A stretch of 39,216 nt of DNA from IMG/VR virus record IMGVR_UViG_3300036832_001431, positions 1 through 39,216 of that record, one strand, 5' to 3'. This DNA is from a virus. Position numbers and translations under genes: made by a program. The notes beneath the pieces are model-generated. The model worked only from the letters and a program-made list of their open reading frames with translations. It was not told the DNA's origin and ran no database searches. Shown piece after piece: positions 2,348-24,369 of this stretch; within the stretch, counting starts at the first letter, position 1, and each line of letters starts with the position of its first letter.

Positions 2348-4132
2348 ATGCACGTACGCCGTCCGCCCGTCGCGCCGTGGTGGGGCCGAGGCCGCTCACC
2401 GGCCGAACGCTGGCCGGGTGTCTCGCTCGACTTCGAGGCGACCTGGTCCACGCTGCGGCGTCGGTGGGAAACCCACGAGGGCCGGTACTACTTCGATGCC
2501 GCGAAGGCCGCACGCGCGGAATCGTTCTTCCCGTTGTTTCTCCAGCATCACATCGGCGCGTTTGCCGGCCAGGCCTTCGAGCTTCGCGACGACCAGCGGC
2601 TGCTGATGATCCGGCCGATGTTCGGCTGGCGTCGGGCCGTCGACGGCCTCCGACGCATCCGGAAGCTGTTCGCGTTCTGCCCGAAGGGATACGGCAAGAG
2701 TCCGCTCGGGGCCGGCCTCGGGCTCTACCTCGCGCGCTTCGACGGCGAGCCGGCCTCCGAGGTCTATGCGGTCGCGGCCGACCGGAACCAGGCCCGCACC
2801 GTCCACGACAACGCGAAAGTCATGGTCGAGAATTCGCCCGACCTGATGGACGGCTGCGCGATTGTGAAAAATGCGATTACCTGGCCGGACCTCTACTCGC
2901 GGTACATCGTCCTCTCGAGTGACGCCGCCACGAAGCACGGGTTTCGGCCGCACGGCATCATCTTCGATGAACTGCACGCGCAGAAAAATCGGGACCTCTT
3001 CGAGGCCCTCCGTAAATCGATGGACAAGCGGGACCAACCGCTGCTGATCATCATCACGCACGCCGGCGACGACGACGAAGGCATCTGCTACGAAGAGTAC
3101 GACCTCGCGAAGCGCGTGCTGAGTGGCAACGCGTCGGAGCTCGAGACGACCCTGCCGGTCATCTTCGAGGCGCAGAAGGGCGAGCCGTGGAATAATCCGG
3201 CGCTCTGGCGCCGCGTGAATCCCGGGCACGGGACGACCATCAAACACGACGGCGTGGCCGAGGAAGCGCGCGAGGCCGCGGCCGAACCCCGCAAACGAAA
3301 CGACTTCGAGCGGTATCACCTGAATCGCTGGACGAACCAGGCGACGGCCTGGATTCCGCTCGATTGGTGGGATGCGTGCGCCGGTCCGCTCGAGGACCCG
3401 GTCCTCCTCGAGCTCGAATGCGCGGCCGGTCTCGACCTGGCGCAGAAGTGGGACCTCGCCGCCTTCGTCGTCGTCTTCCGTCGATTCCTCGAAGTCGAGA
3501 CGGCCATCGACATCATGGAGAAAAACGACGACACCGGCGAACACACGAAGCGCCGCGTCACCTTGAACTATGAACTGTTCGTGCGGCCGCACTTCTGGAT
3601 TCCCGAGAACACGATGCAGCTGCACGAACGCGTGGACGGCGTGCCGTACGGCCTTTGGCGGGACCTCGGCCTGGTCACGGCGACCGAGGGCGACGTCATC
3701 GACTATGACCGGATCTTCGAGGACATCACGACCCGGATCGTGCCCCGGTATCCGCGATTGAAGCAGGGCGGCATCGGGTATGACCCGGCGTTCGCCACGG
3801 ACCTCGCGAGTCGGTTGCGCGACCTGGCCGGCCTCTCGGTTGTGGAAGTGTTACAGAACTATAAGATGCTCAGCGAGCCGGCGCAGATTGTCGAGGCCCT
3901 GATCAAAGGCCGACGCGTCCGGCACGACGGCCATCGCGTGCTCCGATGGAATTTCGAGAACGTCGCCGTCAAGACCGATGACGCTGGGCGGATTCGGCCG
4001 GTGAAGCCGAAGAATGCCGCCAAGCGCATCGATGGCGTAGTCGGGACGATCATGGGCACCAAGGCACTCGAGATGCCGAAGGTTCGGGCCCCGGAATATC
4101 AAATCGTCGTAGTCGGGGGAGGCACCAAATGA
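2348..4132 (+). CDS. terL: Terminase large subunit (packaging ATPase-nuclease)
   Basis: 594 aa, normal length for HK97-type large terminases. The ATPase half carries a Walker A-like 'CPKGYGKS' (111-118) and Walker B 'IIFDE' (204-208), followed by a probable coupling segment 'LLIIITHAGDDDEG' (232-245). The RNase H-like nuclease half carries Asp in 'AGLDLAQKWDLAAF' (D363), 'GGIGYDPAF' (D479) and 'KRIDGVVG' (D562). The protein pumps DNA into the procapsid through the portal and cuts it at the genome ends. ATG 2348 lies just after terS; the stop overlaps the next start as ATGA. Confidence 0.95.
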   Translation: MHVRRPPVAPWWGRGRSPAERWPGVSLDFEATWSTLRRRWETHEGRYYFDAAKAARAESFFPLFLQHHIGAFAGQAFELRDDQRLLMIRPMFGWRRAVDGLRRIRKLFAFCPKGYGKSPLGAGLGLYLARFDGEPASEVYAVAADRNQARTVHDNAKVMVENSPDLMDGCAIVKNAITWPDLYSRYIVLSSDAATKHGFRPHGIIFDELHAQKNRDLFEALRKSMDKRDQPLLIIITHAGDDDEGICYEEYDLAKRVLSGNASELETTLPVIFEAQKGEPWNNPALWRRVNPGHGTTIKHDGVAEEAREAAAEPRKRNDFERYHLNRWTNQATAWIPLDWWDACAGPLEDPVLLELECAAGLDLAQKWDLAAFVVVFRRFLEVETAIDIMEKNDDTGEHTKRRVTLNYELFVRPHFWIPENTMQLHERVDGVPYGLWRDLGLVTATEGDVIDYDRIFEDITTRIVPRYPRLKQGGIGYDPAFATDLASRLRDLAGLSVVEVLQNYKMLSEPAQIVEALIKGRRVRHDGHRVLRWNFENVAVKTDDAGRIRPVKPKNAAKRIDGVVGTIMGTKALEMPKVRAPEYQIVVVGGGTK

Positions 4133-4356
4133 GCGACAAACGCACGGGAGGCCGGCCGCCGTTGTATGAGACGGCCGCCTCGCAGCGCATTGTGGTTCGG
4201 GTCACGCCGGCCCAACGGTTGGAACTCCGACGGGTCGCCGACCAGCAGGGGACAGGGATGGCCGGCGTGATTCGAGAATTGATCGATGAACGGGTCGAGG
4301 ACCGGCGCCCGTTTCCCGGGCACCGGCACGACGAAGAGGAGGAAGAGGACGATTAG
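4129..4356 (+). CDS. Ribbon-helix-helix DNA-binding protein
   Basis: 75 aa. A beta strand 'SQRIVVRVTP' and two helices ('AQRLELRRVADQQGTGMAGV', then 'IRELIDERV') give the Arc/CopG ribbon-helix-helix pattern, with a Gly-containing turn between the helices. The C-terminal 15 residues are strongly acidic (six Glu and three Asp). It is translationally coupled to terL (ATGA) and ends in TAG, overlapping tail-to-tail by 4 bp the last gene of the reverse operon. It probably acts as a dimeric repressor; the CCTAGG palindromes are candidate sites, but nothing in the sequence links them directly. Confidence 0.7.
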   Translation: MSDKRTGGRPPLYETAASQRIVVRVTPAQRLELRRVADQQGTGMAGVIRELIDERVEDRRPFPGHRHDEEEEEDD

Positions 4357-4586
4357 GAACGGTCGGTGCGCGAGAGGCCGGACCAGGTCGCGATGGCCGA
4401 GGGGCCCGGGATATGCGCCAGGTGCGGGCCGGCGTGCCCCTCGGGCCGCGTGCAGATGTAGACCCGGCCGTCGTGCGTCCTCGAGCCGCTCTGGCATTGC
4501 GGCCCCTCGGCCGGCGGATACTCGGCCGCGAGGGCCTGCCCCTCTCGGATGGACAATTCGCGGAACAGTTCGCGGATAGATTTCAT
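4353..4586 (-). CDS. Small Cys/His protein
   Basis: 77 aa, last gene of the seven-gene reverse operon, start coupled by ATGA to the gene before it. The middle holds 'CQSGSRTHDG...C' followed by 'CTRPEGHAGPHLAHIPG'. The 'C-x3-GH-x-GPH' pattern is widespread in small phage proteins, where it probably binds zinc. No function is known. The stop (TAA on this strand) overlaps the RHH gene on the other strand, leaving no room for a terminator between the convergent operons. Confidence 0.55.
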   Translation of the reverse strand: MKSIRELFRELSIREGQALAAEYPPAEGPQCQSGSRTHDGRVYICTRPEGHAGPHLAHIPGPSAIATWSGLSRTDRS

Positions 4587-4792
4587 CGGACCTCCTCACC
4601 GGGCACGGCCTCGGTCTGTAACCAAATCGTCAGCAATCGAAGAATCAACGCACGAATCGACGTGCCATCTCGGCGGGCCTTCGCGCGCACGTCGCGCCAG
4701 AACGTTGCCGGGATTTGATCCAGCATGTAGCGTTTGCCGGTGTCGGCGTAACTCGGGAACTGTCGCGAATAACCCCGTTTGCGGGCAGGCAT
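4583..4792 (-). CDS. Small CopG/RHH-like protein
   Basis: 69 aa. A basic N-terminus ('PARKRGYSRQ') is followed by 'GKRYMLDQIPATFWRDVRAK' and 'RRDGTSIRALILRLLTIWLQ', which looks like a strand plus two helices of a ribbon-helix-helix dimer. If so, it may autoregulate this operon through the palindrome at 5990-6001. It is preceded by the 66 aa gene one base upstream and coupled to the next gene by ATGA. A non-DNA-binding helical protein cannot be excluded. Confidence 0.55.
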   Translation of the reverse strand: MPARKRGYSRQFPSYADTGKRYMLDQIPATFWRDVRAKARRDGTSIRALILRLLTIWLQTEAVPGEEVR

Positions 4793-4793
4793 C

Positions 4794-4994
4794 TTAGCTC
4801 TCCTCCTGAACCCAGTACTGAAAAAACGCCGTCGAGCGCATGTGATTCATCTCGCGATTCAGGCGTCGGGCCTCGGCCTCGGCGGCGTCCCGGGTCTCGA
4901 AGTACTGAATCTCGCCAAGGCGTTTCAGTGTTGCCTCGCGCGTGCCGGTGACGCCGCCCGAGACCCGACACCCGACCGTGAACCGGCCGGTCAT
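4794..4994 (-). CDS. Small protein of unknown function
   Basis: 66 aa from ATG 4994 (ATGA overlap with the upstream gene's stop); the longer open frame to 5342 would run through the two upstream genes and is rejected. 'MTGRFTVGCRVSG' then 'LGEIQYFETRDAAEAEARRL' and 'NREMNHMRSTAFFQYWVQEE' suggest a strand-helix-strand fold resembling the small SPOR-like or viral accessory folds that track residue pairs ('F.TRDAAEAEARRLN'). No function is assigned. Confidence 0.5.
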   Translation of the reverse strand: MTGRFTVGCRVSGGVTGTREATLKRLGEIQYFETRDAAEAEARRLNREMNHMRSTAFFQYWVQEES

Positions 4995-5212
4995 CGGGAC
5001 ACCCGGCGGCCGCCGAGGCGGCGCGGCATCGGTTGACCGAGAAACAGCGAGACCGTTTGCTGGAGACCGGCGGCCCGGGCGGCGTCCCAAATGCGCAGAT
5101 TCTCGGTCGTGTATCCGGCATACTCGATCGTGCCGGCGTGATAGGCCTCGGCGTTGGCGCGGAGTTCGGCCGCCCATTGTCGGGCGCGGGCCTCCTCTGG
5201 AATTTCCTTCAT
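4991..5212 (-). CDS. Small helical protein of unknown function
   Basis: 73 aa. It is helical with an acidic start ('MKEIPEEARARQWAAELRAN') and the central 'GTIEYAGYTTENLRIWDAA', ending in a basic 'RRLGGRRVSR'. The start overlaps the upstream stop (ATGA) and its own stop overlaps the next start. No membrane segment, signal peptide or metal motif. I do not recognise it. Confidence 0.5.
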   Translation of the reverse strand: MKEIPEEARARQWAAELRANAEAYHAGTIEYAGYTTENLRIWDAARAAGLQQTVSLFLGQPMPRRLGGRRVSR

Positions 5213-5457
5213 CGGTTCCCCCAGACCCGGCCATCGAAGGACGTAACGCCATTATTGAAGGCGCACACGAGGGCATCGGCGGCGGCGTACCCGAGTTTCG
5301 AGATGACCACGGGCGCGACTTCGGCCCCGTCAATCGGTTCAATGGTCACCGGGTACTCCCGGCGGCCGCGGGTCGCGAAGGGGCGCGAGGCCCGATAGCA
5401 CACCCCTTCCACGAGTGTCAGACGATGACCGGCAATCGATTTGGTCAGCATGATCAC
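5209..5457 (-). CDS. Small protein of unknown function
   Basis: 82 aa from GTG 5457, which overlaps the upstream stop (GTGA); an in-frame ATG two codons later (5451) is the alternative. Mostly beta: 'IAGHRLTLVEGVCYRA', 'REYPVTIEPIDG', then a helix 'SKLGYAAADALVCAFNNG' and 'VTSFDGRVWGNR'. Not recognised. Coupling on both sides argues that it is translated. Confidence 0.5.
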   Translation of the reverse strand: MIMLTKSIAGHRLTLVEGVCYRASRPFATRGRREYPVTIEPIDGAEVAPVVISKLGYAAADALVCAFNNGVTSFDGRVWGNR

Positions 5458-5675
5458 TTGACCTCGACATCATTGGCATCGAGGATGGACTCGAGGCCTT
5501 CACTGATGCAGGCCAGGGTGCCCACCGTCGCGCCGGTGAATTCGCCGGCGGCGAGGAGGTCAACCAGACCGGCCAGGTCGGCCATCTGCTGACGGACGAC
5601 CGCGAGATTTTTTCTGACCGCGGCCTCGGTGCGGGCCGCCTGGATGCCTTCGGCGCCAGGATTGTATGAGGTCAT
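5454..5675 (-). CDS. Small helical protein of unknown function
   Basis: 73 aa from ATG 5675; the longer frame to 5966 would cross the upstream gene and is rejected. 'MTSYNPGAEGIQAARTEAAV', 'RQQMADLAGLVDLLAAGEFT' and 'GTLACISEGLESILDANDVE' make an amphipathic, mostly helical protein. It starts within the upstream stop (TAATG) and its stop overlaps the next start. No function is known. Confidence 0.5.
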   Translation of the reverse strand: MTSYNPGAEGIQAARTEAAVRKNLAVVRQQMADLAGLVDLLAAGEFTGATVGTLACISEGLESILDANDVEVK

Positions 5676-5920
5676 TACTGCACGTCCTTTGCTGTCGAGA
5701 CGAACACGAACACGTACCCGGTTTTCACGGCGCCGCCGGCCAGGGGCCCCGACCAGTGCATCTTCTGGCAGAGGGCCTCGGCCGCCTTCCGGTGCACGGC
5801 CTCGCCACTCAATTCGTGCGGGTAGGAAATCGTGACCCGGTTGCCGTCGGAATCCGAGGCCGAAATCCTCGAGCCGCGGGTATTGGTCGCGCCGAGGAAT
5901 TTGGTTGTGATGGCCTTCAT
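5675..5920 (-). CDS. Conserved small phage protein
   Basis: 81 aa, first gene of the reverse operon. 'MKAITTKFLGATNTRGSRI', 'DGNRVTISYPHELSGEAVHR', 'AAEALCQKMHW' and 'GYVFVFV' follow a pattern I recognise from many uncultured phages and GC-rich prophages, where it is an uncharacterised small protein. It appears to be a mixed beta/alpha single domain. The leader between its promoter (5978-6006) and the ATG is about 50 nt and can form a GGGGC/GCCCC hairpin (5949-5964). No strong ribosome site is visible. Confidence 0.65.
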   Translation of the reverse strand: MKAITTKFLGATNTRGSRISASDSDGNRVTISYPHELSGEAVHRKAAEALCQKMHWSGPLAGGAVKTGYVFVFVSTAKDVQ

Positions 5921-14310: not shown

Positions 14311-14745
14311 ATGATGGTCGTGCGGCCGGAAATTACCACGCTGACACTCTCGACCGGGGAAACCTTGATCGTGAAGAAGCGCCTGAACGCCGGCGAACGG
14401 CGGGCCATGCTCGCCGCGATGCGCTTGCCGAACGGGCAGATGGATGGCCTGCTCCACGGCCAGGCGACCATCCTGGCGTACCTGGTCGATTGGACCGTGA
14501 AGGACCAGTTGAGTAACGAACCGTTGATCATCGCGGGGCAACCGCGGGAGGCCATCTCGCGCACGCTCGATTCCCTCGACACCGAGGACTTCCGCGAAAT
14601 TCAGGACCTCATCGAGGCGCACGAAGATCGGATGCGCACCGAGCGACAGGAGGAAAAAAAACGGCAGATTGGGAGCTCGAGGTCCGCGCCCGACTCGCCG
14701 TCTGTACCCGATTTGGTTTCCGCTATGCCGATGTCGATGACCTAG
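14311..14745 (+). CDS. Tail assembly chaperone, short (gpG-like) form
   Basis: 144 aa. 'EITTLTLSTGETLIVKKRLN', 'AGERRAMLAAMRLP', 'ILAYLVDWTVKDQ' and 'LDTEDFREIQDLIEAHEDRM' fit gpG-type chaperones that coat the tape measure before tube assembly. After the slippery run the zero frame continues for only 27 low-complexity residues to TAG at 14743-14745, as expected for the short product of a frameshifted pair. It is followed by the -1 frame extension and the tape measure. Confidence 0.8.
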   Translation: MMVVRPEITTLTLSTGETLIVKKRLNAGERRAMLAAMRLPNGQMDGLLHGQATILAYLVDWTVKDQLSNEPLIIAGQPREAISRTLDSLDTEDFREIQDLIEAHEDRMRTERQEEKKRQIGSSRSAPDSPSVPDLVSAMPMSMT

Positions 14746-17191: not shown

Positions 17192-18112
17192 GTGCGCACG
17201 ATCAATCCTCGGCGCATCGCGAAGTCCGGCACCTTCGTGCTCGCCGGCCGAGGCCTGTTCGGGAACCCCACGCCGCCGTGGGCTTATACGACATCGACGC
17301 CCGGGTACTGGGAATACACGACGGGCGCGGCCTCCTCGCCGGTGCCGGCGTCCGACCTACAGCTCGACTTCGACGGCGCCGCGAAGTTGACGGTCGATGG
17401 CGTGACGTACACCGCGGACGGCGCGCCGGCGGGCTTCACGCCGACGACGAATCTGAAGGGCCATATCGACTTCGGGCACATCATTTTCTCGGGGACGACG
17501 TGGGGCATCGAATGGACGGTCAAAATCTGCAACGTCACGCAGGGCCCGAGTTTCATTAACACGACGACGGGCGCGCTGACGCCGGTGCCGTTGCCGGACG
17601 ATACCTCCTGGTTTGACATGCATACGCTGCAGGGCAACCTGCACGGGAATACCGGGACCTTCTATTCCGGCAGCCCGACGACGTTCCGCCTGACCGACTA
17701 CGCCACGAACATCTACATCGACGGCAATTACGTCATCGAAATGTTTTGGTGGGTCCTCCCCGACACGACGGCGTGCGGCGAGCAGAACACGACGACGCCG
17801 CAGGACAGTACCTCGCACCTGGTCCTCGCCGCCGAGGCCCCTGCGGGATATCAGGCGTTTAATCCGAGCGACCCGAGTGACGCGCCGACGCCCGTCATCA
17901 CGTCCATCGAGCCGAACCACGGGTACGCCGGCACGACCGTTAAAATTTGGGGCACCGGATTCGGGGACGGCGCGACCGTCACCTTCGACGGCGCCGCGGC
18001 GACGGCCATCACGGTCGTCTCGAAATATCAGATTACCTGCACGGCCCCGACGCACGCGCTCGGGGGCGCGGTCGTCGTCGTCACGAATCCCGACGGCGTC
18101 TCGAGTACGTAG
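17192..18112 (+). CDS. Tail protein with incomplete C-terminal IPT/TIG domain
   Basis: 306 aa from GTG 17192. Residues 1-220 are beta-rich and Thr/Gly/Asn-rich, without a family I recognise; position after the tape measure suggests a distal tail protein. Residues about 228-306 are an IPT/TIG immunoglobulin-like domain ('PVITSIEPNHGYAGTTVKIW', 'GTGFGDGATVTFDG', 'GAVVVVTNPDGVSST'). The domain stops one strand early at TAG 18110-18112. The next gene is in the same frame and begins with the missing 'TYTY' strand. The two may therefore be one protein made by readthrough. Confidence 0.78.
   Translation: MRTINPRRIAKSGTFVLAGRGLFGNPTPPWAYTTSTPGYWEYTTGAASSPVPASDLQLDFDGAAKLTVDGVTYTADGAPAGFTPTTNLKGHIDFGHIIFSGTTWGIEWTVKICNVTQGPSFINTTTGALTPVPLPDDTSWFDMHTLQGNLHGNTGTFYSGSPTTFRLTDYATNIYIDGNYVIEMFWWVLPDTTACGEQNTTTPQDSTSHLVLAAEAPAGYQAFNPSDPSDAPTPVITSIEPNHGYAGTTVKIWGTGFGDGATVTFDGAAATAITVVSKYQITCTAPTHALGGAVVVVTNPDGVSST
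18110..18112 (+). other. In-frame amber codon inside an IPT/TIG domain
   Basis: TAG followed by GCG then ATG (18116), all in one frame. Removing the stop joins 'VTNPDGVSST' to 'AMNPTYTYDDH', which matches the end of an IPT domain. No clear ribosome site precedes ATG 18116. Either leaky termination, reinitiation, a nonsense mutation or a base-call error would explain it. Confidence 0.7.
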
Positions 18113-18115
18113 GCG

Positions 18116-20701
18116 ATGAATCCGACTTACACGTACGACGACCACGTTCTCGACATCTCGAGCGTGACGCCGAACACCGGGCCGACGGCCGGCGGCACGC
18201 CGGTGCAGATTGTCGGCCGCGGCTTCCTCGACCCGGCCGGCGGCACGACGGCCCCGACCCCGACCGTGACCATCGGCGGCGCCGCGGTCTCGGTCTCGAG
18301 TGCGGGCGACACCTTCGCGCAGTTCGTCACGCCGGCGCACGCCGCGGGCGCGGTCGATATCGTCGTCACGGCGTCCGATGGCGTGGCCGTCACCCTGACC
18401 AATGGCTTCACGTACGCCGACGCCGCGCCGCCGCACGACCTCCGCTTCCGCTCACCCTCGGGCGGCGCGAATTCCCTGGCGCGCACCGAGAACACGCCGC
18501 CGCAAATCACGCAGAGTCTCGGCCAACACGACACGGCCGGATTCTCGACGCCGCAGCAGCCCGTCGGCCTCGAAGGCGTGACCTGGTCGGCGTTCGGGCA
18601 GGTCCTCTTCGAGGGGCCGATTACCAAGACGACGGCGCGCACCGACGGCCGCGAGAAGCTCGAGGTTTGGGATGTCGAGGCCCTCGGGCAATCGTTCCTC
18701 CTCTCGAAGCGCAACGCGACCGGGTCCTGGCACTCGGTCTCGGCCACGACGATTCTGACCACGCTCCTCGCGCAGTACGCCCCGGGATTTCAGTCCTCCA
18801 TCGAGGGCGGCCTGCCGCTGATCACGCTCGAGGCCGACGGGTCGCAAGATTTATGGTCGGTCCTCATCAACGCGTGCGAGCTCGCCGGGGCGCACGTCTT
18901 CGTGGCCGGCACGACCGTGCACGCGTTCTCGCTCGATTCCCACTACGACCCACCGGGCGCCGTCACCGACGGGAATCCGGATCTGCTCTGGCCGGAAATC
19001 GGCCAGGCCGTCACCTATCAGCTCGAGTACTCGCAACTGATCAACTCGGTCACCGTCCGCGGCGCCGAGGGCATCGTGGCGACGGTCGAGGATGCCGCCT
19101 CGATTGGGCAGTACGGCCGGCTCGGTGGGCCGTTGATTGACGACAACACGCTGACGACCCTGGACGAATGCACGCGCCGCGGGCAGACGATTCTCAAGCA
19201 GCACGCGCAGCCGGTCCCAACCGCGCACTACGCCACGCGGGACCTGAAGACCCGGGCCGGCAAGACGGTCAGTATTTCCACGTCGGTCCCGCACATCTCG
19301 GCGTCCTATCTGATCTCGAACGTCCAGATTGACCAGCTCGAGAACCTGGCCGTCGGGCAGCGCCCGCGGTTCATCGTGACGGCCGTGCCGGCGTGGGCCC
19401 CGGCCATGATGCTCAGTGCCCCGACGACGCGCGTGCTCGAGGCCGCGGTCGATGTGATTGCCGAGAAGAATCAGCAGCCGAGACTCGCCGGCGATGTCAC
19501 GAGTGACGCCGGCGGCCGCACGACGATTCCGCCCGCGTCGATTCCGGCCTCGAAGCTGGCCGGGTGCATCGACTCGACCAAGTTGACGCCGACGCCCGTC
19601 GTGCCCGGGTCGTACGGCGGCGCCTTCAGTCGCGAGCTCGAGCCGGCCGCGCAGACCTTCACGCCGAATCATAAAATCGTCGCGTTCTCGGTCGATGCCG
19701 CCGGCCGGATTACCGCGGCCGCGGAGGACCCGGTGCCGGCCATCAAGGCCGACGGCGCCGAACCCTTCACTGCGAATCAGTCACTCGGCGGCCACGCCCT
19801 CACGAACGCGGCCGACCCGACCAACGCGCAAGATGTCGCGACGAAGGCGTACGTCGATGCGCATGCCGGCAGCGGCGGCGGCGCGGGCGGCGATATCCGG
19901 TCGGATGGCACCGTCCCCTTCGCGGCCAATGAATCGATGGGCGGCCATGCCCTCGTGAACGTCGCCACGCCGGTGAATCCCACCGACGCGGCGACGAAGG
20001 CGTACGTCGATGCGCGCACGCCGCAGAACGCCAGTGTCAAGGCGTACCGGGGCACGGTCCAGACGCTGACCTCCGGCACCGAGACGCCGATTGCGATGAC
20101 GGCGACCAGTTACGACTCGGCCGGGTTCTGGTCCTCGAGCCAACCGACGCGGCTGACGGTGCCGGCCGGATTCGCGGGTCGCTATCAGGTCCTCGGGCAG
20201 ATTGGCCTCGCGCCGTTTACCGCAACCGGCACCGTCGTCATCCGCATCAAGGTCAATGGCGTCCTGGCCGCGACCCACGGCTTCAACGCGACGGCGCTCG
20301 CGGATGCCGTGCAGGTCGATGCGCAGCTGAATCTCGCCGTCAACGATTACGTCGAACTGACGACCGTCGTCACCGACAGTGCCGGATCGACGCACGACAC
20401 GGTCGGCGGCGCGACCGAGACGTACGTGAGCATGATCCTGAGCGTCGGCGGCGTCGGCGGCACCGGCGGCGGGACCGGCGGCGGCAGCGGCACGCGGTAC
20501 GCCGGCGAAATTCCGACGGGCACGATCGACGGGACGAATCGCACGTACACGGCCGCGCACGCGTACCTCGACCTGGAGGTCTACGTGAACGGCCTGGCGC
20601 AAACCCCGGGCATCGATTACGACCCGATGACGCCGACGACGTTTGCGTTCAACCTGCCGCCGCTGCCCGGGGATACCGTGATGATTTCCTACGGCGTCTG
20701 A
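18116..20701 (+). CDS. Tail tip/hub protein with IPT domain and fibre modules
   Basis: 861 aa. Residues 1-105 hold the end of one IPT domain and a complete one ('DISSVTPNTGPTAGGTPVQI', ending 'LTNGFTYAD'). Residues about 106-470 resemble hub/tip proteins ('FGQVLFEGPITKTTARTDGR', 'LWSVLINACELAGAHVFVAG', 'HYATRDLKTRAGKTVSIS'). Two fibre repeats follow at about 553-582 and 604-630 ('LGGHALTNAADPTNAQDVAT', 'KAYVDA'). Residues 640-775 look like a C1q/TNF-type jelly roll, and about 795-861 a small beta domain ('LEVYVNGLAQTPGIDYDP', 'GDTVMISYG'). It is probably the central tip plus an anchored fibre. Confidence 0.78.
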   Translation: MNPTYTYDDHVLDISSVTPNTGPTAGGTPVQIVGRGFLDPAGGTTAPTPTVTIGGAAVSVSSAGDTFAQFVTPAHAAGAVDIVVTASDGVAVTLTNGFTYADAAPPHDLRFRSPSGGANSLARTENTPPQITQSLGQHDTAGFSTPQQPVGLEGVTWSAFGQVLFEGPITKTTARTDGREKLEVWDVEALGQSFLLSKRNATGSWHSVSATTILTTLLAQYAPGFQSSIEGGLPLITLEADGSQDLWSVLINACELAGAHVFVAGTTVHAFSLDSHYDPPGAVTDGNPDLLWPEIGQAVTYQLEYSQLINSVTVRGAEGIVATVEDAASIGQYGRLGGPLIDDNTLTTLDECTRRGQTILKQHAQPVPTAHYATRDLKTRAGKTVSISTSVPHISASYLISNVQIDQLENLAVGQRPRFIVTAVPAWAPAMMLSAPTTRVLEAAVDVIAEKNQQPRLAGDVTSDAGGRTTIPPASIPASKLAGCIDSTKLTPTPVVPGSYGGAFSRELEPAAQTFTPNHKIVAFSVDAAGRITAAAEDPVPAIKADGAEPFTANQSLGGHALTNAADPTNAQDVATKAYVDAHAGSGGGAGGDIRSDGTVPFAANESMGGHALVNVATPVNPTDAATKAYVDARTPQNASVKAYRGTVQTLTSGTETPIAMTATSYDSAGFWSSSQPTRLTVPAGFAGRYQVLGQIGLAPFTATGTVVIRIKVNGVLAATHGFNATALADAVQVDAQLNLAVNDYVELTTVVTDSAGSTHDTVGGATETYVSMILSVGGVGGTGGGTGGGSGTRYAGEIPTGTIDGTNRTYTAAHAYLDLEVYVNGLAQTPGIDYDPMTPTTFAFNLPPLPGDTVMISYGV

Positions 20702-20702
20702 T

Positions 20703-23252
20703 ATGGAACGCAATCTCACCGGCTGGGAACTCGGCGACATCGGCGAGCAGCGCGCGTCGGCGTCGACGAACATCACGGCCGGCGTCACCGTCCCGAACAC
20801 GACGGCCCGCAGTGGACAGTTCCGGCTGCAGATTGCCGTGCAGGGCAGTGCCTCGAACCTGCTCGCGTTTCCTGGCGCCTCGGTCACCGGCACGGCCGTC
20901 AGTCCCACGCTGCCGGCCGGCACACATAAGCGCTTTCGCGGCCGGTTCTACCTCCGGGTCGAGAGCACGTACATGCCGTTCGGGAATAGTCAGATTCGCC
21001 TCTGCGGCCTCGGCGGCGAATTCGACACGAACAGCATCAACGTCTGGATGGATGCCACGCGCGCGCTGACCGTGAAAGTCGGGCCCGGTCTGCCGGCCAT
21101 CGGCGGCGGCGGGTACACGACGCAACCGCATACGCCGCCGATGGCCGTCGGCACCTGGTATCGGTTGCTGCTCGATGTCGATTACGCGATTACCTCCGCG
21201 GTCGCCGTCGCCGTCTCGCTGCAGGTCACGACCGACGCCTCGACCCCGGCCCTCGATGCGACCGTGACGGATGCGGGCAGTTTCAGCACGTCCGATGCGA
21301 TGGGCGCGGTCACGCTCCTGAGCGAACGCGTCCGCAACACGAACGACGCCGCCGGGACGTATTCCTTCGATGACCTCGTGTGGCTCGCCGCGGCCGGGGC
21401 CGAAGGCGCGAATCCGCTGACGTTGCCGGACGCGACCAACGTCCTCGGGCTCGCGCCGACATCGATGATCACGGCGCAGTGGGAGACCGGGACGGTCACC
21501 AATGTGGACGAGTACCCGCTCGATACCAGCGGGACCGGGGGCGCCGGCGACACCTTGAGCTCGGTCCTCGGCGACGGCACGACGGTCGTCTTCGGCCATG
21601 CGAGCTCGGCGGCCCTCGGCATCATCGGGGCGGCCGCGGTCAAGGTGTCCGGCAATGCGCGCATCACCGGGAGTGGCACCGGCGCCGTGGATTTCCTCCT
21701 GACCGGGACGCCCACCTCGCGCGTGCTGCAGACGCAATACCCGGCCGTCGCGAGCGGCGTCACGCCGGTCGGCGGCCAGGATTGGAGCGGCCTGCGCGCG
21801 AATCACTTCGACTCGATGACCTTCGGCGTGACCAAACGGAACGGCACGCAGCAGACCTCCCTCGGAAACATCATTGTGGAATATCTGCCGGCGACGGCCA
21901 CGACGTTTGCCGGCGCCGCGCAGATTCGCGGGACGACGCAGATCAAACCCGGCACGATTACCGACCCGCAAATCAGCGCGACGGCCGGCATCAAACTCTC
22001 GAAACTCGAGAAGGCCGTCGTTGCCGCGGATGGTTCGGTGCCTCTGACGGCCGACCTGCCCCTCGGGGGACACAAGCTGACCGGCGTGGCCGACCCGGGC
22101 GCCGCGCAGGATGCCGCGACGAAGGCCTACGTCGATGCGCACGCCCCGACCGGCGTCATCCTCGCAAATGGGTCGGTCCCGTTCGCCGCCGACGAATCGA
22201 TGGCCGGTCACAAGCTGACGAACGTCACCGACCCGGTCAATCCGCAGGACGCGGCGACGAAGGCGTACGTCGATGGGCACGCCGCCGGCGGCGCGCCTGG
22301 GACCTTCAACGAGACGCCAGGCGGCGCCGTCAACGGCGCCAATACGGCCTTCACGACGGCGGTTGCATACGCGTCGGGCACGCTACGCGTCTATGTGAAT
22401 GGCGTACGCCTCGCGCCGGCCGACTACACCGAAACGGGCGCGGCGGCCTTCACGCTCGGTACCGCGCCGGCGACTGGCGACCTCCTGCGCGTCGACTACA
22501 ACTTCGTGACCGGCGTCGTCGGTACCGCGCTTACGGGTACGTTCGCGGCGCGGCCGGCGGCCGCGACAAGCGGCCGTCTCTATCTGCCAACGGACGGTTT
22601 CTCGATCGACCGCGACAACGGCGCGTCGTGGGATGCGTGGGGTCCGCTCGCGCCGCTGATCGAACCGAGCGATACCGGGTTCAGTTGGATCAACCAAGGC
22701 GCGTCGACGATCGCGATCGATCGCGGCCGGCTGACGTTGCGCGGCGCCGGCACGAGCGGCGGTACGAACTGGGCCCTGCGCGTGAAGACGTTGCCGGCGG
22801 CGCCGTACACGGTGACGTACCGCTTCCTGCCGCCGGTCTTTTGCAAGTTGTTTCTCGGGTACGGCCTGGTCGTGCGCCAGGTCGGCGCCGGCACGGGACA
22901 AAACCGCTTCGTCGCGTTGTGGTGGAGTCTCGGCAACTTCGCCGGCGCCGACGCCGGCGGCATCATCCGCTGCGAGAAGTGGACGAGCCCGACAGTCGTC
23001 AGCGCGAGTTACATCGAACAGCGCGCGATTACGCCGCCGCAATGGTTCCGCGTCCAGGACGACGGCACGAATCTGATCTTGTCAGTCAGCGGCGACGGCG
23101 CGACGTGGGTCACGCTGCTGACCGTCGCGCGTCTGGATTTCATGCTCCAGGGCGCCGACCAGTTCGGGTTCGGCGTGTTCACGATGAACAACGCGGCGCC
23201 GAATCTCGACGTGCCGATTACGCTCGTCTCGCTCGCCGTGACGACGCCGTAG
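20703..23252 (+). CDS. Tail fibre / receptor-binding protein with lectin-like domains
   Basis: 849 aa. Residues 1-230 look like a LamG/concanavalin jelly roll ('RFRGRFYLRVESTYMPFGNS', 'YSFDDLVWLAAAG'). Two fibre repeats at about 450-525 ('LGGHKLTGVADPGAAQDAAT', 'AGHKLTNVTDPVNPQDAATK') repeat the modules of the previous gene, as does the small beta domain at about 532-601 ('LRVYVNGVRLAPADYTETGA'). Residues 620-849 are a second lectin-like domain ending 'LVSLAVTTP'. It probably recognises the host surface. CTCGAG almost vanishes in this gene, consistent with recombination. It ends in TAG, with the ribosome site overlapping the stop. Confidence 0.75.
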   Translation: MERNLTGWELGDIGEQRASASTNITAGVTVPNTTARSGQFRLQIAVQGSASNLLAFPGASVTGTAVSPTLPAGTHKRFRGRFYLRVESTYMPFGNSQIRLCGLGGEFDTNSINVWMDATRALTVKVGPGLPAIGGGGYTTQPHTPPMAVGTWYRLLLDVDYAITSAVAVAVSLQVTTDASTPALDATVTDAGSFSTSDAMGAVTLLSERVRNTNDAAGTYSFDDLVWLAAAGAEGANPLTLPDATNVLGLAPTSMITAQWETGTVTNVDEYPLDTSGTGGAGDTLSSVLGDGTTVVFGHASSAALGIIGAAAVKVSGNARITGSGTGAVDFLLTGTPTSRVLQTQYPAVASGVTPVGGQDWSGLRANHFDSMTFGVTKRNGTQQTSLGNIIVEYLPATATTFAGAAQIRGTTQIKPGTITDPQISATAGIKLSKLEKAVVAADGSVPLTADLPLGGHKLTGVADPGAAQDAATKAYVDAHAPTGVILANGSVPFAADESMAGHKLTNVTDPVNPQDAATKAYVDGHAAGGAPGTFNETPGGAVNGANTAFTTAVAYASGTLRVYVNGVRLAPADYTETGAAAFTLGTAPATGDLLRVDYNFVTGVVGTALTGTFAARPAAATSGRLYLPTDGFSIDRDNGASWDAWGPLAPLIEPSDTGFSWINQGASTIAIDRGRLTLRGAGTSGGTNWALRVKTLPAAPYTVTYRFLPPVFCKLFLGYGLVVRQVGAGTGQNRFVALWWSLGNFAGADAGGIIRCEKWTSPTVVSASYIEQRAITPPQWFRVQDDGTNLILSVSGDGATWVTLLTVARLDFMLQGADQFGFGVFTMNNAAPNLDVPITLVSLAVTTP

Positions 23253-23265
23253 GAGAGAGCCGACG

Positions 23266-24369
23266 ATGTTCAATACTCAAGTCAGTCTCGCTACGCAGGT
23301 CAAAGGTCCCGGCACGGGCGGCGCCGCGCAGTATGTCCGGCAGTCGACGCTCGGCGGGCCGTTCACCGTCGGTACGATTCCCGTCGGCGACGTCGTCGGG
23401 TCTGTCGGCGGCAGCGGTACCGTCGGGACGCTGACGAAATGGGCGACCGCGAACACGCTGACGAATTCGCTCGTCAGCGAGGCGGGCGGAGTCATCGCGG
23501 TCGGCGGTGGGATGCAGTTCCAGACGGCGGCCGTCTATCCGGGTCCAGGTTCGGTTTATCGGAGCGCGAGCCTTGGGCTCGCGGCGATCGGCGTTGCGGG
23601 CTCATCGTATGACTTTGCGGTACTTGATCCGACTGGCAACTTTATTATTCTCTCCGTCCCGACGGGGACGAAAAACGTGGCGTTTAGCGGGAACGTGGCG
23701 GTCAGCGGCACACTGAGCGTGCCCGGCAATTCCGCGACGTTTGGCAGCAATGTAACCATCGCCGGGACGCTGAATGTGACCGGCAAAACAAGTCTGACCG
23801 GGCTGCAGTTGCTGACGGCGCCCTTTGCGGGGTCAGGTTCAGTCTATAGGGACACTAGCCTTGGGCTCGTGGCGATCAGCGCGACGGGCTCATCGTATGA
23901 CTTTACGGTAATGAATCCGGCCGGCGGCGCATTCGTTCTCACCGTCCCGACGGGGACGACAAACGTGGCGTTTGGCGGGAACGTGACGGTCAGCGGAATA
24001 CTGAGTCCGGCGTTGACACAGGCGATGTCGTGGGCGACACGCGCATCGGGCACGGTCTATCAGGCGGCCTCGGACGGCTTCTTCATGGGCTACGTGCTGA
24101 TCGGCGGGACCGCGAGCAGTTCGGCGCCGTCCTTTTTGGGGGAGGTTGATATTAAAACAGACGCGGCGAATCCGCCGACGACGATTCGGCAAAGTTGCTC
24201 GTTCAACGTCAGTCTCGGGAGTCCCGGCACGCTGTCGATGTCGTCGAATTACTACATTCCATTTTGTTGTCCAGTCAAGAAAGGCGAGTTCTATCTCGCG
24301 ACGCCGAGCGGCGGCGCGTCGACCTTGCAGTTTACCGGCTTCTGGGTACCGCTCGGGACCGCAGGATAA
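23266..24369 (+). CDS. Repetitive tail fibre / receptor-binding protein
   Basis: 367 aa. 'GSGTVGTLTKWATANTLTNS' near 50-70 is the 'G.....L.KW.....L.NS' fibre motif also seen ahead of S74-peptidase fibres. Two 57-residue repeats (about residues 95-151 and 191-247) share 'SLGL.AI...GSSYDF', 'VPTGT.NVAF.GNV.VSG', the pattern of beta-strand stacks in trimeric fibres. The C-terminus (about 255-367) is a separate beta domain with Cys-rich 'IPFCCPVKKGEFYLA', probably the tip. Base use is more AT-rich than in neighbours. Preceded by AGGAGAG. Confidence 0.65.
   Translation: MFNTQVSLATQVKGPGTGGAAQYVRQSTLGGPFTVGTIPVGDVVGSVGGSGTVGTLTKWATANTLTNSLVSEAGGVIAVGGGMQFQTAAVYPGPGSVYRSASLGLAAIGVAGSSYDFAVLDPTGNFIILSVPTGTKNVAFSGNVAVSGTLSVPGNSATFGSNVTIAGTLNVTGKTSLTGLQLLTAPFAGSGSVYRDTSLGLVAISATGSSYDFTVMNPAGGAFVLTVPTGTTNVAFGGNVTVSGILSPALTQAMSWATRASGTVYQAASDGFFMGYVLIGGTASSSAPSFLGEVDIKTDAANPPTTIRQSCSFNVSLGSPGTLSMSSNYYIPFCCPVKKGEFYLATPSGGASTLQFTGFWVPLGTAG
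23548..23718 (+). repeat. Direct repeat unit A in fibre gene
   Basis: 171 bp unit repeated with no indels 288 bp (96 codons) downstream. Long identical runs include CTTGGGCTCG, GGGCTCATCGTATGACTTT and CCGTCCCGACGGGGACGA. Similarity at the DNA level points to a recent internal duplication in the fibre shaft. Confidence 0.8.
23836..24006 (+). repeat. Direct repeat unit B in fibre gene
   Basis: Second copy of the unit at 23548-23718, in the same reading frame. Differences cluster in the middle ('LDPTGNFIIL' versus 'MNPAGGAFVL') while flanks are near identical. Confidence 0.8.

Follow-up and report, generated by a model that had tools for sequence, protein, structure and literature searches.

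The HDII-insertion domain is carried by one chain in T5 pb3 and is divided over two tail-tip proteins in lambda and in RcGTA (PMC10721106). Chaperone-usher pili contain Ig-like subunits without the seventh (G) strand, each of which is completed by the N-terminal extension of the next subunit (PMC4654587). Ig-like extensions are also found on phage coat and tail proteins, to which they are added by frameshifting from the upstream gene (Fraser et al. 2006, reviewed in PMC5009743). At the level of translation, termination-reinitiation works well only when stop and start lie very close together, and gene pairs for subunits of one complex are enriched for it (PMC10666635). The literature searched gave no report of a TIG domain or a donor strand in a phage tail. 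We describe here two adjacent genes of an uncultured virus of bacteria or archaea that probably code for separate, translationally coupled tail proteins sharing one IPT/TIG domain, whose strand G would be provided in trans.

The window, that is the whole stretch of DNA that was analysed, is a virus record of 39,216 bases with a G+C content of 66%. Its terminase, head and portal genes are followed by a tail operon, and the pair described here, named gene 1 and gene 2, is surrounded by genes for head and tail (Table 1). Gaps of 2 nt (17189/17192) and 1 nt (20701/20703) separate the pair from its neighbours. The probable tape measure protein encoded upstream has no family match in profile searches. 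L035 (contig IMGVR_UViG_3300047160_036169), the only close relative found, has the three genes in the same order, with the tape measure homologue directly 5' of the pair. Gene 2 codes for a probable baseplate hub or tail-tip protein, as suggested by a set of sequence matches. Its residues 301-407 hit weakly the 'baseplate hub' of haloarchaeal virus HVTV-2 (27% over 107 residues, tblastn 7e-4), the protein matches phrog_21793, and a Pfam match to YQBQ lies below the cut-off. The homologue in L035 gives a weak match to the Gp44-like hub domain, and the C-terminal half of the gene 2 protein matches tail fibre families.

Table 1. Features of the gene 1/gene 2 locus (positions in the window).
Feature	Position	Strand	Basis or remark
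Upstream gene, probable tape measure protein, 787 aa	14826..17189	+	Position and length; 41% identical homologue in L035
Gene 1, tail protein, 306 aa, GTG start, TAG end	17192..18112	+	C-terminal IPT/TIG minus last strand; L035 homologue
IPT/TIG domain 1, gene 1 residues 234-302, strands A-F only	17891..18097	+	PF01833 E 5.7e-13, profile 1-74/84
Amber stop of gene 1	18110..18112	+	Homologous position in L035 is TGA in ATGA overlap
3-nt spacer GCG, stop to start	18113..18115	+	Spacing suits termination-reinitiation
Gene 2, probable baseplate hub/tail-tip protein, 861 aa, ATG start	18116..20701	+	Weak hub matches
Predicted G strand completing IPT domain 1, gene 2 residues 1-10 (MNPTYTYDDH)	18116..18145	+	Joined model; MSHSFTYESL in L035
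IPT/TIG domain 2, gene 2 residues 14-100, complete	18155..18415	+	PF01833 E 4.5e-13, profile 3-84/84
Tail fibre-like gene, 849 aa, TAG end	20703..23252	+	phrog_19068, phrog_1640; 1-nt gap after gene 2

The sequence confirms that genes 1 and 2 share one frame and are set apart only by TAG GCG ATG (window 18107-18118, ACG TAG GCG ATG), as had been read from the letters. Joined, they would code for 1169 aa. A shared frame is by itself not unusual in this stretch, where it occurs at 3 of 11 neighbouring junctions. What singles out the junction is the position of the gene boundary relative to a folded domain. The IPT domains at the end of gene 1 and at the beginning of gene 2 score 49.1 and 49.4 bits with PF01833, above the Pfam gathering score of 20.9 bits for this family. 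The gene 1 polypeptide does not carry a complete IPT/TIG domain: its profile match breaks off at position 74 of 84 and the remainder is found on gene 2. If TAG is read as Q, this first TIG match grows to 84/84 and gains about 3 bits; overall, the score rises by only 1-3 bits when the strand is added. Ahead of gene 2's own IPT domain, which starts at residue 14, stands the sequence MNPTYTYDDHVLD; the gene 2 YTY aligns with the FTY that closes each IPT in bacterial and archaeal tandem IPT arrays. The proteins in these alignment rows, which are also the tandem-IPT controls, are cellular ones from genome contigs, matching by IPT alone. In c-Met, aligned by sequence, one of its own IPT boundaries falls at the same place.

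The joined segment was modelled with AlphaFold2 as an artificial single chain, the stop being replaced by Q, and the model has a mean pLDDT of 91. IPT domain 1 corresponds to model residues 7-94, with 1qho_A as the best solved TIG (Z 14.1, 1.5 Å over 83 residues), and comparison with solved structures places IPT domain 2 at model residues 94-187. Since model residue 83 is the stop and residue 85 is Met1 of gene 2, residues 1-10 of gene 2 lie inside the domain of gene 1. In this single-chain model, the stretch that follows the stop is thus predicted to be strand G of IPT domain 1. Profile and model agree with the original prediction that gene 1 ends one strand short of an IPT domain and that gene 2 opens with the missing 'TYTY' strand, followed by a complete IPT domain. 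Compared with the one joined chain, gene 1 codes for an Ig-like subunit without strand G. A model of gene 1 alone, based on two sequences, is poor (pLDDT 38).

Comparison with L035 shows which traits of the junction are kept. Gene 1 of L035 (12342-13316) has 43% identity to gene 1 of the window, and the genes 2 have 63% identity over their first 470 columns. Gene 1 ends at the same column in both viruses (DGVSST in the window, DGVSSAP in L035) and gene 2 starts at a homologous Met (MNPTYTY and MSHSFTY, respectively), with the [FY]TY strand kept. In L035, however, gene 1 ends at a TGA within an ATGA overlap that puts gene 2 in a different frame, so no simple readthrough could fuse the two genes; nor does the gene 1/gene 2 overlap of L035 contain a -1 slippery site or slippery heptamer. 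What the two viruses have in common is therefore the split, not the in-frame amber. The distance from a shared TCGAG to the ATG is 10 nt in the window and 6 nt in L035, and on this sequence comparison the shared frame of the window is a coincidence arising from the 4-nt length difference at the junction. As a relative bearing on the original prediction, against which two well separated genes with intact domains would speak, L035 is intermediate: the frames are separate, but the domain is still split.

A C-terminal IPT domain truncated in this way is unusual, given that 30 distinct viral-contig ORFs with a C-terminal IPT have a complete last strand (28 of these strands end at most 1 residue from the stop). 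Incomplete C-terminal IPTs in viral-contig ORFs are those of the window, L035, L103, L105 and, marginally, L113, which appears complete by eye. No further convincing split was found among 437 IPT domains in the retrieved loci with stops read through. One candidate, L104, with an in-frame TAG|ATG and the sequence MPVFYTY, was dropped: its last IPT seems to own its final strand and the next gene has no IPT. In L105 (3911-6003) an ATGA overlap interrupts an IPT array behind strand B; this locus was left out of the count, as it may represent a genuine split or an indel.

L103 (IMGVR_UViG_3300048672_001072; G+C of the locus 43%) has no detectable homology to gene 1 outside the IPT. At positions 2711-5841 it has three consecutive tail genes, A to C, with both boundaries inside IPT domains, between strands A/B and F/G. 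At the F/G split gene B stops after strand F (VTVVNTA, TAA) and gene C opens with MPIFTYDPP, in a different frame from gene B and with a TAA of its own frame just ahead of the ATG. A further IPT is shared out over genes A and B, whose in-frame junction TAA|ATG lies between its strands A and B. In L108, a relative of L103, the A/B split recurs but the junction is an ATGA overlap (MITIHGSGFGDGA), and this second virus pair likewise keeps the split while the frame differs. The A/B case is less exact than that of the window and L035, as the A proteins have 26% identity and differ in length at the C-terminus. In L108 (3240-4300), gene B, after the A/B split, ends inside a second, truncated IPT.

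We favour the following sequence of events for the window. Ribosomes would terminate at the amber codon and most likely re-initiate 3 nt further on, at the ATG of gene 2. The gene 1 product would carry strands A-F of its last IPT domain, to which the N-terminus of the gene 2 product, the probable hub, most likely adds strand G in trans. The two proteins would then be held together non-covalently, in the manner of pilin N-terminal extensions. The strand to be supplied is present and conserved at the N-terminus of gene 2, its fit being that of the joined-chain model. Re-initiation is consistent with the stop-start distance, -4 to +5 nt across all split cases seen, and with the Shine-Dalgarno of gene 2, weak in the window and L035 alike. 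Coupling by re-initiation, complementation in trans and location at the tail tip are thus what we infer for the pair.

The main rival to strand donation is a neutral origin, with the split left over from a fused protein of an ancestor. The IPT domain of gene 1 would then fold, or be tolerated, without strand G, and the strand on gene 2 would be a leftover of a tandem IPT without a binding role. Longer IPT arrays do have continuous tandem domains, making the split of a once-fused gene plausible, and boundaries of domain and gene are mismatched at other viral loci (L105). A relic should erode, however, and the [FY]TY strand is kept although the genes 1 are only 43% identical; a comparable split is also kept in L103 and L108. 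We regard the relic as rather unlikely, though it is a more serious contender than any explanation in which the stop is crossed or spurious.

The original prediction was that the amber is leaky and yields a minority fused tail protein of about 1169 residues. There is no other stop before gene 2, the fusion would form a normal tandem IPT, and Ig-like extensions produced by recoding, which is indifferent to frame, are known in phages (PMC5009743). The comparison gives no support to this part of the prediction. The genes of L035 are in another frame without a slippery motif, the L103/L108 pair differs in frame too, and gene 2 has its own ATG at 18116, conserved in L035, where a recoded extension would have no start of its own. 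No RNA stimulator was found 3' of the amber, the 100 nt there folding no better than shuffles (z 0.87); neither a recoding signal in the window nor a frame allowing fusion in L035 was seen. A sense codon in place of the stop, which had been suggested as something to look for in relatives, is not what L035 has at this position, where TGA stands instead. Conservation of the split without the in-frame amber makes programmed readthrough improbable and is a strong argument against a sequencing error or fresh nonsense mutation in a normally single long gene. For the latter, the frame is open on either side of the stop and one base change would suffice in principle, but L035 also stops gene 1 there and restarts at the homologous ATG, so that we give an error or mutation very little credit. 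Reassignment of TAG to a sense codon in this virus is the least credible reading of all. The open frame across the stop is all that speaks for it, and TAG closes two other genes, of 144 aa at 14745 and of 849 aa at 23252, with the next genes starting within 80 and 13 nt, respectively; no tRNA gene, suppressor tRNA included, was found within the window. Because the split persists in L035 while the shared frame does not, the amber looks like an ordinary gene end and not a leaky stop, at which low basal readthrough may occur.

With strand donation as the preferred reading, the locus resembles several known systems, each in part. The likeness to lambda gpL/gpJ and RcGTA gp13/gp15 lies in a domain divided between the C-terminus of the upstream protein and the N-terminus of the one encoded downstream (PMC10721106). 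The halves in lambda and RcGTA meet in the virion, whereas the window pair is known from sequence and a single-chain model. They also form an HDII-insertion domain with a [4Fe-4S] site, with other genes between the two partners, whereas in the window an IPT/TIG domain is nicked between strands F and G of adjacent genes. Gene 1 lacks the four conserved Fe-S cysteines of the gpL type at its C-terminus, only C195 and C283 being invariant between the window and L035. Chaperone-usher pili share with the window an Ig-like fold minus its G strand and the presence of that strand at the N-terminus of the next protein (PMC4654587). In the window, however, nothing implies a chaperone or usher, the strand would occupy its native place, and donor and acceptor would be unlike tail proteins whose genes are coupled. 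As in recoded Ig-like extensions, an Ig-like domain lies at the boundary of virion-protein genes and the frame varies among relatives, but what follows the boundary here is a large tail gene that starts at a conserved ATG of its own. Coupled gene pairs of the ATGA/TAATG type (PMC10666635) have the same very short stop-start spacing; their boundary lies between complete proteins and not, as here, within a folded domain. Divided tail-tip domains being already known, what appears new is a domain common to adjacent tail proteins that is nicked at a coupled stop-start junction.

It is possible, though we put it forward tentatively, that phage tails repeatedly use such 'nicked' Ig-like domains as joints: the stop-start junctions of coupled tail genes would lie inside IPT domains, and strand donation at differing points of the fold would hold successive tail proteins together. 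The candidate set, held just as tentatively, would comprise F/G nicks in the window, L035 and L103, and A/B nicks in L103 and L108. If strand donation is true, the joint would depend on both products being made together, and joints of this kind could be recognised from sequence in other tails; the split Ig-like domains would then be a natural counterpart to engineered strand-complementation pairs. The locus also carries a warning: a stop codon that interrupts a domain in frame is no sure sign of readthrough or error, and relatives reveal whether the frame is kept.

Gene 1 and the IPT of the hub look like a gain specific to this lineage. Searches for distant DNA matches and tblastn with gene 1 in the phage collection found none, and viral scans with gene 1, gene 2, tape measure and hub alignments gave L035 as the sole match for gene 1 and the hub region. 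Neither gene 1 nor an IPT-hub is present in the records with related terminases among L005-L034 that are long enough to search. In L086, L090 and L091, which have related terminases, a probable tape measure is directly followed by a probable hub without IPT, an arrangement that points to the gain.

Downstream, the fibre-like gene at window 23266-24369 has a sub-threshold Pfam match to a hemicentin domain and no clear family. Modules of the form GGHxLTN..DPxxxQDxATKAYVDxH are repeated at window 19784-20024 and 22062-22285, in gene 2 and in the next fibre gene. They occur also in L004, which has only these fibre repeats in common with the window, and the copies of gene 2 and of the fibre gene are 71% identical in DNA sequence.
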